DNA of 64,000 nt, from positions 1-64,000 of the forward strand of contig JAHJLI010000084.1 of NCBI GenBank assembly GCA_018821785.1, read 5' to 3'. Every line of letters starts with the position of its first letter. Position 1 is the stretch's first letter. This DNA is from Pseudomonadota bacterium (lineage in GTDB: Bacteria; Desulfobacterota; Desulfobulbia; Desulfobulbales; Desulfocapsaceae). The notes below the pieces were generated by a model. The model did no database searches. It saw only the letters and a list, made by a program, of their open reading frames with translations, and was not told where the DNA came from. Made by a program: the position numbers and the translations under genes. Shown piece by piece: positions 1 through 10,249 of the stretch.

Positions 1-177
1 CGGCGGTTCCTGCTTTCTACCCACTCACTCAGGCAATAGCAGAGGTTTTCTCATTCTCCTTGGCTGTCTCTTTCTCATGAAATGTAACGCAAGTTGAGAA
101 TTTCGGCCGATTCTCAGGGCGTCGGGATAGAGAATCTATACTGGTTCAAAAAAGAAGAAGAGCACAACGGAGCAAAC

Positions 178-675
178 GTGTCGGTACAGCGCAGCGATGC
201 TGTGGCTCAATATCCTCAGGGCAGTGCGAGGAATCCGATAGTTCAGTTGCACCGCGAAATTGATGGCCTTTTCGAAAATGTTTTCCGAGGATTTGGAATT
301 GCGCCTTTCCGTTCTCATTTTTTCACCCCACTTACCGCTGAAGGGCTGCTGAAACCGCAGGTGGATATTGGCGCGACTGACAAGGAATACTCCATTACCG
401 TTGAGGTGCCAGGGGTAAGCGAAAAGGATGTTAAGGTTGAAATATCCGGCAATGTAATCACCATACAGGGGGAGAAGAAACAGGAGAAGGAGGAAAAGGA
501 CAAGAACTACTACCGGATTGAACGTTCCTACGGTTCATTCCAGCGCGTTCTTTCCTTGCCGGAAGACGCTAACCAGGATGATGTTAAGGCTACGTTTAAT
601 AAAGGAGTTCTGACCATCAAGATGTCGCGTAAGGCCCTGCCGAAACCCGATGTGAAAAAGATTGAAATCAGATAA
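178..675 (+). CDS. Hsp20/alpha-crystallin small heat-shock protein
   Basis: ATP-independent cytoplasmic holdase that keeps unfolding proteins soluble for refolding by ClpB/DnaK. The 165-residue product has a variable N-terminal arm, an alpha-crystallin domain covering roughly residues 60-155 and the family signature FNKGVLTIKM near the C-terminus. The reading frame is open further upstream to a TTG at 94, but the GTG at 178 has a GGAG five bases before it and yields a normal family length, so it is preferred. It is the first gene of a stress cluster continuing with YfdX, ClpB and a second Hsp20. Family assignment is secure; the start is an inference. Confidence 0.92.
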   Translation: MSVQRSDAVAQYPQGSARNPIVQLHREIDGLFENVFRGFGIAPFRSHFFTPLTAEGLLKPQVDIGATDKEYSITVEVPGVSEKDVKVEISGNVITIQGEKKQEKEEKDKNYYRIERSYGSFQRVLSLPEDANQDDVKATFNKGVLTIKMSRKALPKPDVKKIEIR

Positions 676-788: not shown

Positions 789-1712
789 ATGAAAAGCATA
801 ATCGTCAAAACCATTGTGACCATCTTCTCGATATTGTTTCTGGCGACTGGTAGCGCCATGTTTGCCGCTGACAAGGAGAAAACTGCCACGCCCGAAGTAC
901 AATCGAAATCAGCCCGGGAAGTACAGCCTGCTGTTGATGCAAAAACAGATGAGAAGGTAGCCGAACAGCGAAAAAAAATACTTTCCCAAGCCACCGTCGC
1001 AATTGAAGAATCGAGAAAGGCATTGAAGGCCCTTGATGAAGGTAAAACCGAGGAGGCTATAAAGAACCTCGAACTGGCCACCGGGAAAATGGCGCTTATT
1101 GTTGCCCGTGATCCTGAACTTTCTTTAGCCAACGTAGATATTAAGGTCAAGGTGTTTGATGTTTTTGCCAATGCGGAAACGTTGGAAGCGACGGTTAAGC
1201 GGGCCACAAAATACTTGGAAGATGGTGAGGTCCAGTTGGCAAGGCCTCTTGTTGCCAGTCTGGCCAGTGAAATGGTAATTGAATCAGTGAATATCCCGCT
1301 GGCAACCTACCCTGAGGCTATCAAGGATATCGTTCCCCTGATAGACAAGGGTAAAATCAAAGAAGCCAAGGCCGCTCTGCAGGCGGCTCTTAATACCCTG
1401 GTTGTCATTAACGAGGGGGTCATTCCGCTTCCTGTCATGAGAGCGAAAGCCATGCTGAAGGAAGCTGAGAAGCTGGCTGAAACTAAAGAGCGCAAGGAAG
1501 AAGACAATAAAAAGCTTGCGACCTTCCTTGATAATACAGAGACTCAGTTGAAAATAGCTGAAATTCTGGGCTATGGTGACAAAAAAGCCTTCAAGCCAAT
1601 GTACGAACAACTGGATACAATCAGGGAAAAAACCAAAGATGGTAAATCCGGCACAGGCTTTTTTGATAAACTCACGGAACAGGTTTTTAAAAATTTTCAA
1701 TTAACACCGTAA
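789..1712 (+). CDS. YfdX family secreted helical protein
   Basis: Product of 307 residues with a Lys-start, hydrophobic signal peptide (about residues 1-26, ending near MFAA) and an otherwise alpha-helical body rich in Ala, Lys and Glu that matches the YfdX family pattern (paired helical repeats such as ATVAIEESRKALKALDEGK). YfdX proteins occur in acid- and heat-stress loci, including the Enterobacterial stress-tolerance islands; a chaperone-like role has been proposed but the biochemical function is not settled. Probably exported to the periplasm. AGGAG precedes the ATG. It lies between hsp20 and clpB and has its own downstream terminator. Confidence 0.82.
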   Translation: MKSIIVKTIVTIFSILFLATGSAMFAADKEKTATPEVQSKSAREVQPAVDAKTDEKVAEQRKKILSQATVAIEESRKALKALDEGKTEEAIKNLELATGKMALIVARDPELSLANVDIKVKVFDVFANAETLEATVKRATKYLEDGEVQLARPLVASLASEMVIESVNIPLATYPEAIKDIVPLIDKGKIKEAKAALQAALNTLVVINEGVIPLPVMRAKAMLKEAEKLAETKERKEEDNKKLATFLDNTETQLKIAEILGYGDKKAFKPMYEQLDTIREKTKDGKSGTGFFDKLTEQVFKNFQLTP

Positions 1713-1958: not shown

Positions 1959-4529
1959 ATGAGAACAGACAAGCTTACTAGCAAATTTCAACAGGCATTA
2001 TCCGATGCGCAAAGCCTGGCGGTCGGCAGAGATCATCAGTTTATTGAGCCGACCCATCTGATGATGGCATTGCTTAATCAGGAAGGAGGGACAGTGCGGC
2101 CGTTGCTGGCTCAGGCCGGTGCTGATACCAATCAGCTCCGTTCCGGAATCGGAGAGGCCATTGACCGGCTGCCCAGGGTGGAGGGTAATGGTGGTGAGGT
2201 CCACCTGTCCAATGATTTGGGTAAAATTCTCAACATCACCGACAAGCTGGCCCAGCAGTATCAGGATCAGTTTATCTCAAGCGAGCTTTTTGTTCTTGCG
2301 GCACTGGATAGCAAGGGGAACCTTGGTGAGCTGCTGCGAAAAGCCGGTTGCGAAAAAAACGCTGTGGAGCAGGCTATTGACGCCCTCCGTGGCGGTCAGA
2401 AGGTTGATGATCCCAATGCCGAGGAACAGCGTCAGGCTCTGGAAAAATATACCATCGATCTTACCGAAAAAGCCGAACAGGGGAAACTTGATCCGGTCAT
2501 CGGCCGGGATGAAGAAATCCGCCGGACGATCCAGGTGTTGCAACGTCGCACCAAGAACAACCCGGTCCTCATTGGTGAACCAGGGGTTGGGAAAACAGCA
2601 ATTGTTGAAGGCCTTGCCCAGCGTATTGTCAACAAAGAAGTGCCCGAAGGACTGAAAGGAAAACGATTGCTTTCCCTCGACCTGGGATCACTCATTGCCG
2701 GGGCCAAATTCCGCGGTGAATTCGAGGAACGACTCAAGGCTGTTTTGGCGGATCTGGGTAAACAGGAGGGTCAAATCATCCTCTTTATTGACGAGCTTCA
2801 TACCATGGTTGGCGCAGGGAAAGCTGAAGGGGCTATGGACGCAGGAAACATGTTGAAACCCGCACTTTCTCGAGGCGAACTCCATTGCGTCGGTGCCACA
2901 ACTCTTGACGAGTACCGGAAATATATCGAAAAGGACGCGGCCCTGGAACGGCGGTTTCAAAAGGTGCTTGTAGACGAGCCGACCCGGGAGGATACCATTG
3001 CCATATTGCGTGGACTCAAAGAGCGGTATGAGCTGCACCATGGTGTTGAAATCACTGACCCGGCCATCGTTGCCGCAGCCACCCTGTCTCATCGTTATAT
3101 TACCGACCGGCAGTTGCCCGACAAGGCTATCGATCTGATAGATGAGGCCGGGTCGCATTTGCGTATGGAAATCGACTCCATGCCCGAAGAAATGGACCGC
3201 CTCGACAGGCGCCTCATCCAACTCAAGATTGAACAGGAGGCGATGAAAAAAGAGAAGGACAGTGCATCAAAAAAACGGCTGTCCGATCTTAAGGAGGAAA
3301 TAAGCCGTCTTGAACGCGAGTTCTCTGACCTGGAAGAGGTTTGGAAGGCGGAAAAGGCCTCTATCCAGGGCACAACCCACATAAAAGAGGCTCTTGACCG
3401 GGCCAGGGTAGAACTTGACGCAGCCCGCCGTGCAGGCGATCTTGCTCGGATGTCCGAGTTGACCTACGGCACTATTCCTGATCTGGAAAAGCAGCTGGAA
3501 ATGGCAAACAAGGTGGAAAATCAGGAAATGCGTCTCTTGAAAACCAAGGTGACGGAGGAGGAAATCGCCCAGGTGGTTGCGAAATGGACCGGGATCCCTG
3601 TTTCCAAACTGCTGGAAGGTGAAAGGGAGAAATTGCTGCACATGGAAGAGGCTCTCCATCAAAGGGTGGTTGGCCAGGATGAGGCCGTGCGCGTTGTGGC
3701 AAACGCAATCCAACACAGCCGCGCTGGTTTCAGTGATCCCAATCGGCCCAATGGTTCCTTCCTTTTCCTCGGGCCTACCGGGGTCGGAAAGACGGAGTTG
3801 TGCAAGGCACTAGCCGAGTTTCTGTTTGATACCGAAGGCGCCATGGTACGGGTAGATATGTCGGAATTCATGGAGAAGCACTCTGTCGCCCGTTTGATCG
3901 GCGCGCCTCCGGGCTATGTCGGCTATGAGGAGGGCGGCTACCTGACGGAATCAGTCCGCCGGAAACCGTACTCGGTCATACTCCTTGATGAAATCGAAAA
4001 AGCCCATCCCGATGTCTTTAATATCCTGCTCCAGGTGCTCGATGACGGACGATTGACCGACGGCCATGGTCGCACCGTCGATTTCCGCAACACGGTGGTG
4101 GTTATGACCTCAAATCTCGGTTCGCAGCTTATTCAGGAGAAAGCGGGCAGCGAGCGTTATGAGGAAATGAAAAGTGCGGTCCTGGAAATTGTCGGCCAAC
4201 ATTTCCGTCCGGAATTTATCAACCGGCTGGACGAGATAGTTGTCTTCCATCCTCTCGGCAGACAGCAGCTTCGTGCCATTGCCGATATCCAGGTCAACCT
4301 GTTTCAGAGCCGCCTAGAGGAAAGCGCCCTGAAACTTGAAATATCCAGCAGCGCCCTGGATCTACTGGCAGAAGCGGGGTTTGATCCGGTTTTCGGTGCC
4401 CGTCCTTTGAAAAGGGCGATTCGTCATCAACTGGAACAGCCCCTGGCAAGAAAAGTTCTGGCGGGAGAATATGTGCCGGGAGATATCGTTTCGGTGGATG
4501 TCCGAGACGGCGAACTGCTTTTTCGGTGA
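1959..4529 (+). CDS. clpB: ATP-dependent disaggregase ClpB
   Basis: Hexameric Hsp100 AAA+ chaperone that threads proteins out of aggregates together with DnaK. The 856-residue sequence shows an N-terminal Clp repeat domain (about 1-145), AAA domain 1 with Walker A GEPGVGKT near 206 and the Walker B/DELHT segment, the long coiled-coil middle domain (about 405-525) that distinguishes ClpB from ClpA, and AAA domain 2 with Walker A GPTGVGKT near 605. Length matches the family (about 857). GGGAG lies before the ATG. Its position between small heat-shock proteins suggests a coordinated proteostasis unit. Whether it is the housekeeping ClpB or an accessory ClpK-like copy cannot be decided here; the ordinary length and lack of an N-terminal extension favour ClpB. 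Confidence 0.96.
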
Positions 4530-4566
4530 ACAGAAGAGGAGATCAATTAAACAGATAAGCAGAGGA

Positions 4567-4608
4567 TGGATTGGTTGTGTCTTCCCACATGAAGACACAA
4601 CCAATCCA
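4567..4608 (+). promoter_or_regulatory. Perfect 18-bp stem-loop just before the hibernation/sigma-like gene
   Basis: Arms 4567-4584 and 4591-4608 are perfectly complementary (TGGATTGGTTGTGTCTTC and its complement), with loop CCACAT. The hairpin ends two bases before the Shine-Dalgarno AGGGAGG (4610-4616) of the gene starting at 4622. There is no U-tract, so a simple terminator is unlikely; it may stabilise or process the clpB mRNA, or control translation of the next gene. Confidence 0.65.
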
Positions 4609-4621
4609 TAGGGAGGCATTT

Positions 4622-5659
4622 ATGCAAGTGCAATGGATATTTGAAGGCTGCGCAGGGCCGACAAAAGAAAAATGCAGGGCGTATTGGGAGAAGAAACAGC
4701 AGCGTCTGGGGCGGCTGCTGGCAACCATTCCTTCCAGCTCAAAAAGACTCAGGTTAGCTGTTTTCCATCAGACCGAGCAAATTGAGAAATTTGAAGTGCG
4801 AGGGGTGTTGCTGCTGCCGGGCCGGACACTTGCCGTTCAGTTTTTTCATCAGTTGCTCTTTGGGGCTCTTGATGGGTTGGCCGACAAGCTTGTAACCGTA
4901 GCGCAGAAATATAAGAGACAGTCGGCCCAATTTGTCCGGATGCAGCGCCGACAGCAGATTTCTGATGACCTGGTTGCTGCCCAGCCATTGCTGGTTTCGG
5001 ATAAAAATGCCGACAGAAAGGAATCGTTTTTCAGGACAATCAGGCCGCTGCTAGGTTTTTTGGAACGACATGCCCGAAATGAAATAAAAATTCATGAACT
5101 GGAGGGGGTGCTCAGTCCAGGGCAGGTCGAACCAGCTGACATAGTGGATGACGTGGTCGTGCTTGCCTGGGAGAACTTCGACAAAAAGAAGAAAGATCTG
5201 TCACTAGAATTATGGCTTATCAATCTCCTGCACAAAATTCTTGTCAAGGCTATACAGGATAGCCGATTTATCTCGTTGGATCAGCGCTTCCCTCTTGCCG
5301 ATATCGACTCCACAGCCGAACCGGAATGGCTTGAAGAGGTGCTGGGATACCAGGAAGAGCTTTCGCTTGCGGAATTGTTGCCCGATTATGACCAGACTGA
5401 TGTGTGGGAACAGCTCGATGATCTGGATCGCAACCTTCATTTTAATCAGGTGTTGCAGAAATTTCCATCCTGTCAGCGTCAGGCCTATCTGCTTAATGCG
5501 TTAAATGAGTATTCACCGAAAGATGTTGCCGGAATCCAGGATCGAGATGTGAAAAATGTTGAAGACGATATCCAAAAAAGTACCGAGGCGATACGAGACT
5601 ACATGCAGAAGGAGGAATTTATTCTCAGAAGCAATAAGCGGAGGGCACGGTATGAATAA
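4622..5659 (+). CDS. HPF/RaiA-like domain fused to sigma-70-like regions
   Basis: A 345-residue protein with an unusual architecture. Residues about 1-110 (VQWIFEGCAGPTKEKCRAYW onward) resemble the ribosome-hibernation factor fold, with alternating strand/helix and a basic C-terminal helix KLVTVAQKYKRQ. Residues about 145-200 (IVDDVVVLAWENF...LELWLINLLHK) resemble sigma-70 region 2, and about 270-345 (FPSCQRQAYLLNALNEYSPKDVAGI) resemble region 4. All of this is pattern reading; no search was run. It could connect ribosome state to transcription of the stress cluster. The ATG at 4622 has AGGGAGG upstream and is preferred to the GTG at 4571, which lies inside a hairpin. The stop overlaps the next start by eight bases, implying translational coupling. 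Confidence 0.6.
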   Translation: MQVQWIFEGCAGPTKEKCRAYWEKKQQRLGRLLATIPSSSKRLRLAVFHQTEQIEKFEVRGVLLLPGRTLAVQFFHQLLFGALDGLADKLVTVAQKYKRQSAQFVRMQRRQQISDDLVAAQPLLVSDKNADRKESFFRTIRPLLGFLERHARNEIKIHELEGVLSPGQVEPADIVDDVVVLAWENFDKKKKDLSLELWLINLLHKILVKAIQDSRFISLDQRFPLADIDSTAEPEWLEEVLGYQEELSLAELLPDYDQTDVWEQLDDLDRNLHFNQVLQKFPSCQRQAYLLNALNEYSPKDVAGIQDRDVKNVEDDIQKSTEAIRDYMQKEEFILRSNKRRARYE

Positions 5660-6264
5660 CTTAATGAAACTATTTGAAAACAGAAAAATACTTATTGGGC
5701 TGGTGGTTCTTTTATTCGTTGTGGCAACCGTACAAAGCGTTTTTCTGGTCAGACTTTACCACTTGTTCGACCATGATGTTTCGATCAGCACTTCTAGGCA
5801 ATTTGAAAACAATCTTGGCCTCGAGGAAGATATTTTAAAACGCTTTGACCAGCAATCCTGGGACCCTTTTACGGAATTTCAAATCAAGAGAGAAAAAATG
5901 GAACGGATGTTTGATGACTCATACAATCGCTTCAGGCGCAGTCCCTTTTTTGATGAAGAGAGAATAGACAGTTTAGTGCCGCAAAACGACCTGCTTGAAG
6001 AAGGCGACAGGTACATTGTAAAGATGAATATTCCCGGTTCGGAGCAGGCCGAAATTAAAGTTAATTAAAGGTACCATTCTGACAGTTAAACCCCAAACAC
6101 AGCGTTCAGAAGACCCAAAAAAAAGTGATGGCATCTTGAGAATGGAAAGAAGTACGGGTACTTTTCAAAGAACTATGCAGCTTCCAGGCTTGGTTGACTC
6201 CTCGCTCATGAAAACCGAGTATAAGGATGGAGTGCTGACTATAGTTTTGCCTAAAAAGAAATAA
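5652..6264 (+). pseudogene. Membrane-anchored Hsp20, interrupted by a one-base frameshift
   Basis: The first frame (5652-6068, 138 residues) encodes a membrane helix near residues 11-33 (ILIGLVVLLFVVATVQSVFL), a charged linker and the start of an alpha-crystallin domain, ending at TAA in NIPGSEQAEIKVN. The domain resumes in the next frame from GGT at 6070 (GTILTV ... RSTGTFQRTMQLPG ... YKDGVLTIVLPKKK) to TAA at 6262-6264. Deleting one T in AATTAAAGG restores VNKGTILTV, typical of Hsp20. The result would be about 203 residues. Alternatives are a sequencing error or recoding at the stop codon. Its start overlaps the preceding gene. An inner-membrane-tethered small chaperone is uncommon. Confidence 0.75.
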
Positions 6265-6289
6265 CTGGTCAAAAGATGAAGGGTTTTTC

Positions 6290-8740: not shown

Positions 8741-10249
8741 TTACTTGGAGTACGAGCTACGGTCGCTCATCCCCTTACGAGAATCCATATTAAGTCGGCC
8801 TTTAGCAACCGCCTCCTTGTTCCATTCCTGGACGAGAGCGGCTTTGAACGCCAGCTTTTCGGCGACCTCCTTCTCCATGTTGATACCGGCCAGGGCTTGA
8901 GCCTTCTCTTTTGTTGAGAAGTCGGGAACCTGATAGCCGATCACCCCATGTTTGGCCAGAACCGCCGCCAGTTTCACCCGCGCCTGCTGGGCCTTGTCAC
9001 CCGCCTGTGCGAGCAGCCGCAAGACCTCTTCGGGATTATGGAAGAATGCGCCATGGCCGGCGATCGAATAGTCCCAACGCCATTGGCCATGACGGATATC
9101 CTGCAGGATGTCTTTCATCTCTTCGGCAGTGGCACCGACTTCCCAAGCCTTGCCGGCCTCAAGATGCGCCCTCGCCAGGCCGTTCATAGCGAGATCCATC
9201 AATTCTTCCTTGCGCTGCAGCTTGATGGCCAGGTGATCCTTGAATTCCTTTTCGCTCTCGCTGTGGCAAGTCAGGCAGGTATTTTCAATATTGTCCAGAG
9301 GGCTGCCAACCTTGTGCTCGGTGAAGACGGCATCGCCATCTTTTTTGGTCGGCATATGACAATCGGCACAAGAAAGACCACGGCGGCCGTGGACCCCGCC
9401 GACAAACACTTCATAGTCGGGATGCTGGGCCTTGAGCATCGGCGCCTTGCTGATGGCGTGGGTCCAGTCGGAGAAATTCAGCGCGTCATAATACGCCTCA
9501 ACATCCTCGCCTTTAAAGCCGTTATCCCAGGGGAAGATGACAGTCATGGCAACCTTCTTTTCACCCTTTGAGTCGGTCTCCTCGCTCTTTTTGAAATAGT
9601 ATTCGGAGTGGCACTGGGCACAGACCAGTGAGCGCATGTCGTCCTTATTGAGTTTGGCGACATCAACACCCGATGCCTCAAGACCGCGCTTCAGATAATC
9701 GCGGGTGAGGGTCAGCTCACCGGTCTTACTGTCATGACAATCGCCGCAGCCGATGGGATTGACCACCTCACTGCCGTATTTAGCCCATTTTCCCGTGAAA
9801 TATTCCTTCTCGCCTACCTCCTGCATCAACCGCGGTACATCTGGAGATTTACAGGTCCAGCAGGCGGTCGGCATGGGACCGGTTATGGGGCTGACCGGGG
9901 CACCTGTTCGCAGGGTATTGACATTATCCTGAATGGCATAGAAGTGGCCGCGCGGGGCGTTATAGTCCTTGGCAAAACCGTAACCGGCCCAGAGCACCGG
10001 CAATTGGGGCTTCTTCTTCAACATATCATCAAGGCTTTCGCTCTTACTGGTCTCTTTCCACGAGTTATACTGGCGGGGGTAATGCTTGGCCCATTCCTCG
10101 TTTTTTGCTTCAACGCCTTTTTCCTTGACCACCGGATTCTTGATATCACCTTTCTGATCAGCGGCGCCAGCATGAATCGGCGAGCTTAGCAGGGTGAGCG
10201 AGGCTATGGTCACCAGGGTGCAACGCAACAGCTTCTTCGATGTCTTCAT
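8741..10249 (-). CDS. nrfA: Ammonia-forming cytochrome c nitrite reductase
   Basis: Periplasmic pentahaem enzyme reducing nitrite to ammonium with six electrons. The 502-residue precursor has a signal peptide (about 1-27). Haem sites are CWTCK at 130-134 (the catalytic haem with the diagnostic Lys ligand), then CGDCH 168, CAQCH 210, CADCH 294 and CLTCH 325. HSEYYF after the third haem and KAQHPDYE near 272-279 fit the Tyr and His of the active site. AGGAGG precedes the ATG. The usual membrane partner gene nrfH, normally immediately upstream, is absent from the window. It is divergent from a quinone oxidoreductase across a region carrying tandem operator-like dyads. Confidence 0.97.
   Translation of the reverse strand: MKTSKKLLRCTLVTIASLTLLSSPIHAGAADQKGDIKNPVVKEKGVEAKNEEWAKHYPRQYNSWKETSKSESLDDMLKKKPQLPVLWAGYGFAKDYNAPRGHFYAIQDNVNTLRTGAPVSPITGPMPTACWTCKSPDVPRLMQEVGEKEYFTGKWAKYGSEVVNPIGCGDCHDSKTGELTLTRDYLKRGLEASGVDVAKLNKDDMRSLVCAQCHSEYYFKKSEETDSKGEKKVAMTVIFPWDNGFKGEDVEAYYDALNFSDWTHAISKAPMLKAQHPDYEVFVGGVHGRRGLSCADCHMPTKKDGDAVFTEHKVGSPLDNIENTCLTCHSESEKEFKDHLAIKLQRKEELMDLAMNGLARAHLEAGKAWEVGATAEEMKDILQDIRHGQWRWDYSIAGHGAFFHNPEEVLRLLAQAGDKAQQARVKLAAVLAKHGVIGYQVPDFSTKEKAQALAGINMEKEVAEKLAFKAALVQEWNKEAVAKGRLNMDSRKGMSDRSSYSK

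Follow-up and report, generated by a model that had tools for sequence, protein, structure and literature searches.

A fusion of an HPF-like and a sigma-like module in a heat-shock cluster belongs to a widespread protein family that includes orf11 of mobile heat-resistance islands

Ribosome hibernation and sigma-factor control are normally assigned to separate proteins. In the stretch of 64,000 nucleotides from a Desulfocapsaceae genome analysed here (the window), an initial annotation had read a single gene as joining both, with an N-terminal third resembling HPF/RaiA and a remainder resembling sigma regions 2 and 4, and had proposed that ribosome silencing and promoter selection were thereby combined to an unusual stress switch inside a heat-shock cluster. 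We asked whether both modules are present in this protein, whether it has relatives, and whether its two halves retain the residues by which their counterparts act. The gene, its parts and its neighbours are compiled in Table 1.

Table 1. Features of the fusion gene and its surroundings in the window (residue numbers refer to the fusion protein).
Feature	Position	Strand	Evidence or remark
Hsp20 small heat-shock protein	94..675	+	PF00011, E 1e-26
YfdX protein	789..1712	+	PF10938, E 1e-33
ClpB-type disaggregase, upstream neighbour of the fusion	1959..4529	+	
Inverted repeat, perfect over 19 bp, 6-nt loop, between clpB and the fusion	4566..4609	+	ends directly before the ribosome-binding site
Ribosome-binding site AGGGAGG	4610..4616	+	precedes the fusion ATG; sequence
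HPF-sigma-like fusion gene	4622..5659	+	345 aa, ATG start, TAA stop
HPF/RaiA (S30AE) domain, residues 1-105, beta-alpha-beta-beta-beta-alpha	4622..4936	+	profiles, model, structure comparison
Basic connector, residues 106-127	4937..5002	+	R106, R109 and R110 invariant or nearly so across the family
Sigma2-like helical module, residues 128-214	5003..5263	+	family-invariant D176 at the ECF Q position
Low-confidence linker, residues 215-260	5264..5401	+	
Sigma4-like four-helix HTH, residues 261-344	5402..5653	+	basic ECF residues missing from the recognition helix
Hsp20 with a hydrophobic N-terminal segment; its start overlaps the fusion stop	5652..6267	+	frameshift near 6066; PF00011, E 5e-10, downstream frame

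The initial annotation had described its match as made by eye and weak in places, and the profile scores of the window protein alone bear this out, all of them lying below the cut-offs. Pfam S30AE aligns to residues 15-100 with an E-value of 0.013 and 16.7 bits (curated cut-off 23.7), Sigma70_r4_2 and PhyR_sigma-like give weak matches around residues 277-319 below their gathering cut-offs, and the NCBIfam sigma-70 models TIGR02985 and TIGR02937 reach 3e-8 and 3e-6 over residues 168-327. PF16321, the dimerisation domain of long HPF, has no match in the window protein or anywhere in its own genome, and Pfam detects no receiver domain in the window protein, whose C-terminal end is formed by the sigma4-like helices.

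The family as a whole speaks more clearly. When 35 members were scanned singly, S30AE was recovered in 34 (E up to 0.1; best 1.2e-11), Sigma70_r4_2 in 29 and PhyR_sigma-like (PF22233) in 25; the paralogue in the same genome scores at the curated cut-off of S30AE, and one member exceeds the TIGR02937 cut-off with 44.3 against 42.9 bits. Searched against PDB sequences, a profile of 16 family sequences retrieves E. coli sigma-E (RpoE) with 3e-14, SigW with 5e-14, PhyR with 2e-8 and HPF/YfiA with 4e-8 at best. In other genomes, one half of the profile detects stand-alone HPF-like proteins and the other half stand-alone sigma factors. Two loci (L021, 1501-1857, and L022, 1501-1854) encode proteins of about 117 aa that consist of a single domain similar to the N domain of the fusion; such proteins are a possible source of the fused HPF domain.

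For structure prediction, AlphaFold2 was given a 35-row alignment of the window and genome-contig sequences. The resulting model has a pLDDT of 78.5 overall and of about 94 in the N domain; its pTM is 0.50, which is low, so that the placement of the domains relative to each other is not fixed by the model. Residues 1-100 adopt a beta-alpha-beta-beta-beta-alpha arrangement, followed by helices at 127-161, 171-184 and 195-214, by a linker modelled with low confidence (216-259) and by four helices within 261-344. In structure comparison the N domain matches HPF of V. cholerae best (4hei; Z 15.5, rmsd 1.4 A over 92 residues), and residues 130-332 match RpoE bound to the anti-sigma factor NepR (5uxx; Z 13.9 over 151 residues), followed by SigW-RsiW, CnrH-CnrY and PhyR, the PhyR chains with Z 10.3-10.8. 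The nearest sigma-like structures are thus sigma factors or PhyR in complex with an anti-sigma factor, and sigma-promoter complexes are found among the fold matches as well. A second model, of a close Tepidimonas homologue of the tLST orf11, reveals the same pair of folds (HPF/RaiA Z 14, RpoE-NepR Z 13.7). Prediction and fold comparison, a check that the initial annotation had named, thus confirm both an HPF fold and a sigma fold in the modelled window protein. A model lacking the two folds, which would have spoken against the annotation, was not obtained, and its reading of the N-terminal third and of the remainder stands.

With the window protein as sole query, no relative was found in 56 close genomes, 14 of them of the same genus. 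Within its own genome, contig C232 encodes a full-length paralogue with 40% identity over 330 residues, located directly downstream of two hsp20 genes. A translated search of plasmids yielded weak full-length matches inside proteostasis islands. One of them lies in the tLST of an E. coli plasmid and is a hypothetical protein between hdeD-GI and trx-GI, i.e., at the position of orf11 in the tLST gene order (PMC8290217); others adjoin clpK-like, ftsH, hsp20 and hdeD genes in Roseomonas or lie near hsp20, groEL and dnaK in Paraburkholderia. The Paraburkholderia member as query matched 303 plasmid records, 271 of them over at least 80% of its length. Profile search added further members within the phylum of the window, and a scan of GTDB genomes revealed 149 relatives, distributed over Alpha-, Beta- and Gammaproteobacteria and single genomes of Acidobacteriota and Nitrospirota. 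The orf11 gene of the tLST occurs in 152 of 5,426 complete E. coli genomes, with at least 80% of its length covered in 144; among phage sequences no relatives of the fusion were found.

Maximum-likelihood analysis joins the window protein and its paralogue with full support and places the two among members from the same phylum; as they sit on long branches, this grouping is unsure. Whichever part is taken, HPF, sigma2, linker or sigma4, close pairs have dN/dS ratios of mostly 0.02-0.3 (tLST pairs of the highest similarity hold too few changes to be read), and purifying selection acts on both halves. A motif in the linker, [FY]E[FY][YW]QPD[DE], is conserved in the proteobacterial members. We conclude that this is a real, widespread and uncharacterised family, of which orf11 of the mobile heat-resistance islands of E. 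coli and Klebsiella is a member.

A chance resemblance or a decaying gene, at which the sub-threshold Pfam matches of the window protein might hint, was considered and rejected on the profile and structure evidence from the entire family, the full-length paralogue and the low dN/dS among relatives; we regard it as hardly credible.

Annotation pipelines name the members sigma-70, sigma-28, FliA or sigma-like HTH protein. Examples are L007 (7866-9005), L006 (7923-9074) and related plasmid records, which are called flagellar biosynthesis protein FliA or RNA polymerase subunit sigma-28. The FliA and sigma-28 names look like misannotations.

The heat-shock setting described by the initial annotation is found in the window, where the genes follow each other in the order Hsp20, YfdX, ClpB, fusion and frameshifted Hsp20. 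YfdX is a hallmark family of tLST islands. A tLST carries shsp20, clpK/G, yfdX, hdeD, the orf11-family gene, trx and kefB; the cluster in the window shares Hsp20, YfdX, a ClpB-type Clp protein and the orf11-family gene, not the full set, and neither HdeD, Trx nor KefB was seen beside the fusion. The frameshift in the downstream Hsp20 gene reflects either a sequencing error or a pseudogene. Further downstream, at 8741-10249, the window holds a gene for an NrfA-like multihaem cytochrome (recognised by eye from its CxxCH motifs), which is unrelated to the fusion.

The association with Hsp20 extends to the family. After removal of near-duplicate loci, an Hsp20 gene lies no further than about 8 kb (less at contig ends) from the fusion at 23 of 44 non-redundant loci, compared with none of 20 canonical ECF loci, which were drawn from the phylum of the window only (Fisher p 1.5e-5). 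None of the markers is found in the flanks of 16 of the 44 loci, mostly gammaproteobacterial ones, and the link to Hsp20 and proteostasis genes is therefore strong, not universal.

The inverted repeat in front of the fusion gene is unique in the genome and would form a very stable RNA structure (fold z-score -5.7). Near the gene, Rfam yields sub-threshold matches only and no credible RNA, and the coding strand holds no promoter-like site and a terminator signal no greater than chance. The paralogue, in turn, is preceded by an 18-bp hairpin and a T-run about 260 bases upstream (L003, 2380-2421), which look like a terminator.

Does the sigma-like half select promoters? The heat-shock genes around the fusion form an operon-like setting, which, along with the sigma profile matches, the one member past the TIGR02937 cut-off and the fold match to sigma-promoter complexes, would suit a genuine ECF-type sigma factor under the control of its HPF domain, held at the ribosome or released from it and guiding RNA polymerase to heat-shock promoters thereafter. 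The residues argue against this. The recognition-helix pattern of the ECFs, V-K-[STV]-R-x-x-R-A-R, seen in an alignment of 17 canonical ECF sigmas (from the phylum of the window) and 50 family members, is missing from the family, and the window protein reads V-E-D-D-I-Q-K-S-T instead. The mean net charge of this helix is -2.0 in the family versus +3.3 in the ECFs (p 1e-9, with related sequences treated as independent), and that of the region-2.4-like helix is -1.5 versus +3.1 (p 3e-8, again with related sequences treated as independent); in the latter helix, the asparagine of the ECFs is replaced by E or D in most members. Positions at which ECFs contact DNA by basic residues are acidic or variable throughout the family, and the conserved Q of region 2.2, which serves core binding, is present in 16 of 17 ECFs and is D in all 50 members.

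The contact residues for the -10 and -35 elements are lost and the ECF-sigma fold is retained. A genuine sigma factor is thus an unlikely explanation, given that the recognition helix and region 2.4 both carry a net negative charge and that the core-binding Q is exchanged in every member; the sigma2-sigma4 module has the look of a sigma mimic, not of a sigma that selects promoters. The sigma-like domain of PhyR has likewise kept the sigma shape and lost the promoter contacts. Of the stress switch first proposed, both folds and the heat-shock setting stand, and its promoter-selecting part has become doubtful.

On the HPF side, basic residues occupy the positions equivalent to R83 and K87 in helix alpha2 of E. 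coli HPF in 78% and 88% of members, respectively; the window protein has T and K there. Ribosome silencing by the domain is plausible, judged from the modelled HPF fold and the basic helix alpha2 positions, both retained in most members. Two further HPF-like genes are present in the same genome, so that the fusion is not the sole HPF of the cell. One of these two is another kind of HPF fusion, in which an S30AE domain is followed by a cold-shock domain (contig C247; L130, 1261-1815).

The retained HPF fold and basic residues, together with the lost DNA contacts, would also fit a purely ribosomal hibernation factor that plays no part in transcription; its sigma-derived module would be structural and contact the ribosome or pair two ribosomes. 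Models for such a second domain are the CBS module of HibA and the C-terminal domain of long HPF. HPF fusions with a ribosome-contacting partner do exist, as in the archaeal HPF-CBS fusion HibA, whose CBS module contacts the large ribosomal subunit (PMC13324472). However, the whole sigma2-linker-sigma4 layout is retained in all subfamilies and is under selection, beyond the need of a generic helical spacer, and we hold this explanation to be rather improbable.

Each known system shares one part of the picture. With HPF/RaiA (YfiA, PF02482) the fusion has in common the fold of residues 1-105, the profile match and, in most members, the basic helix alpha2; it differs by the added sigma-like module and by having no PF16321 domain. 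The ECF sigmas RpoE, SigW and SigH resemble it in their sigma2-linker-sigma4 layout, fold and profile score, whereas the fusion lacks the promoter contacts of regions 2.4 and 4.2, has D for Q in region 2.2 and bears the HPF domain at its N-terminus. The anti-anti-sigma response regulator PhyR comes close in that a sigma-like module is joined to another domain, with PF22233 and the structure match in agreement, but PhyR has a C-terminal receiver domain where the fusion has an N-terminal HPF domain. HibA likewise couples an HPF domain to a second regulatory domain, which is CBS there and sigma-like here. Orf11 of the tLST, LHR and TLPQC islands belongs to the same family with the same two-fold architecture, at only about 20% identity to the window protein.

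No report of an HPF-sigma fusion was found in the open-access papers searched. The HPF and sigma parts are of known kinds; what appears to be new is that they are combined, how widely this occurs and what orf11 is.

Published work bears on orf11 itself. When 13 tLST genes were deleted singly in E. coli MG1655, seven of them, not including orf11, proved necessary for resistance to heat or chlorine (PMC8407380); in LHR2 islands, orf11 is disrupted by an insertion (PMC5383660). A role in hibernation or recovery need not necessarily show in such assays, since the deletion experiments scored survival of short lethal treatments.

Starting from what was computed here, namely both folds, the unity of the family, the missing promoter contacts, the selection acting on each half and the link to proteostasis islands, we propose that the fusion is a ribosome-docking factor that carries a sigma mimic and couples idle ribosomes to the transcription machinery, a reading to which we give nearly even chances. 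Judged by its fold and basic residues, the HPF domain would dock at the 30S decoding site of idle ribosomes, and a flexible linker would tether it to a sigma2-sigma4 module that keeps its fold without the residues for recognising -10 and -35 elements. This module may present a sigma-like surface to core RNA polymerase or an anti-sigma factor. In this way the transcription machinery would be informed how many ribosomes stand idle during and after protein-damaging stress, by PhyR-like partner switching or by parking of RNA polymerase, the direction of control being our inference. We count against this proposal the T at the R83 equivalent of the window protein, the 16 loci without markers, the orf11 deletion result and the LHR2 insertion.

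Extended to all members, the proposal describes a mobile family of bacterial regulators in which one polypeptide combines an HPF domain that senses or silences idle ribosomes with a sigma mimic to capture RNA polymerase or an anti-sigma factor, so that hibernation and the transcription machinery are physically linked; we put this forward tentatively, as a possibility somewhat short of even. A single protein with both modules would couple the state of translation directly to transcription. The assignment to the family corrects automatic names such as FliA and sigma-28. It also gives orf11 a testable identity; this uncharacterised gene, present on several hundred plasmids, belongs to the best-known transferable island for heat and chlorine tolerance. 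If the proposal is true, transmissible heat-resistance islands carry a so far unrecognised regulator.
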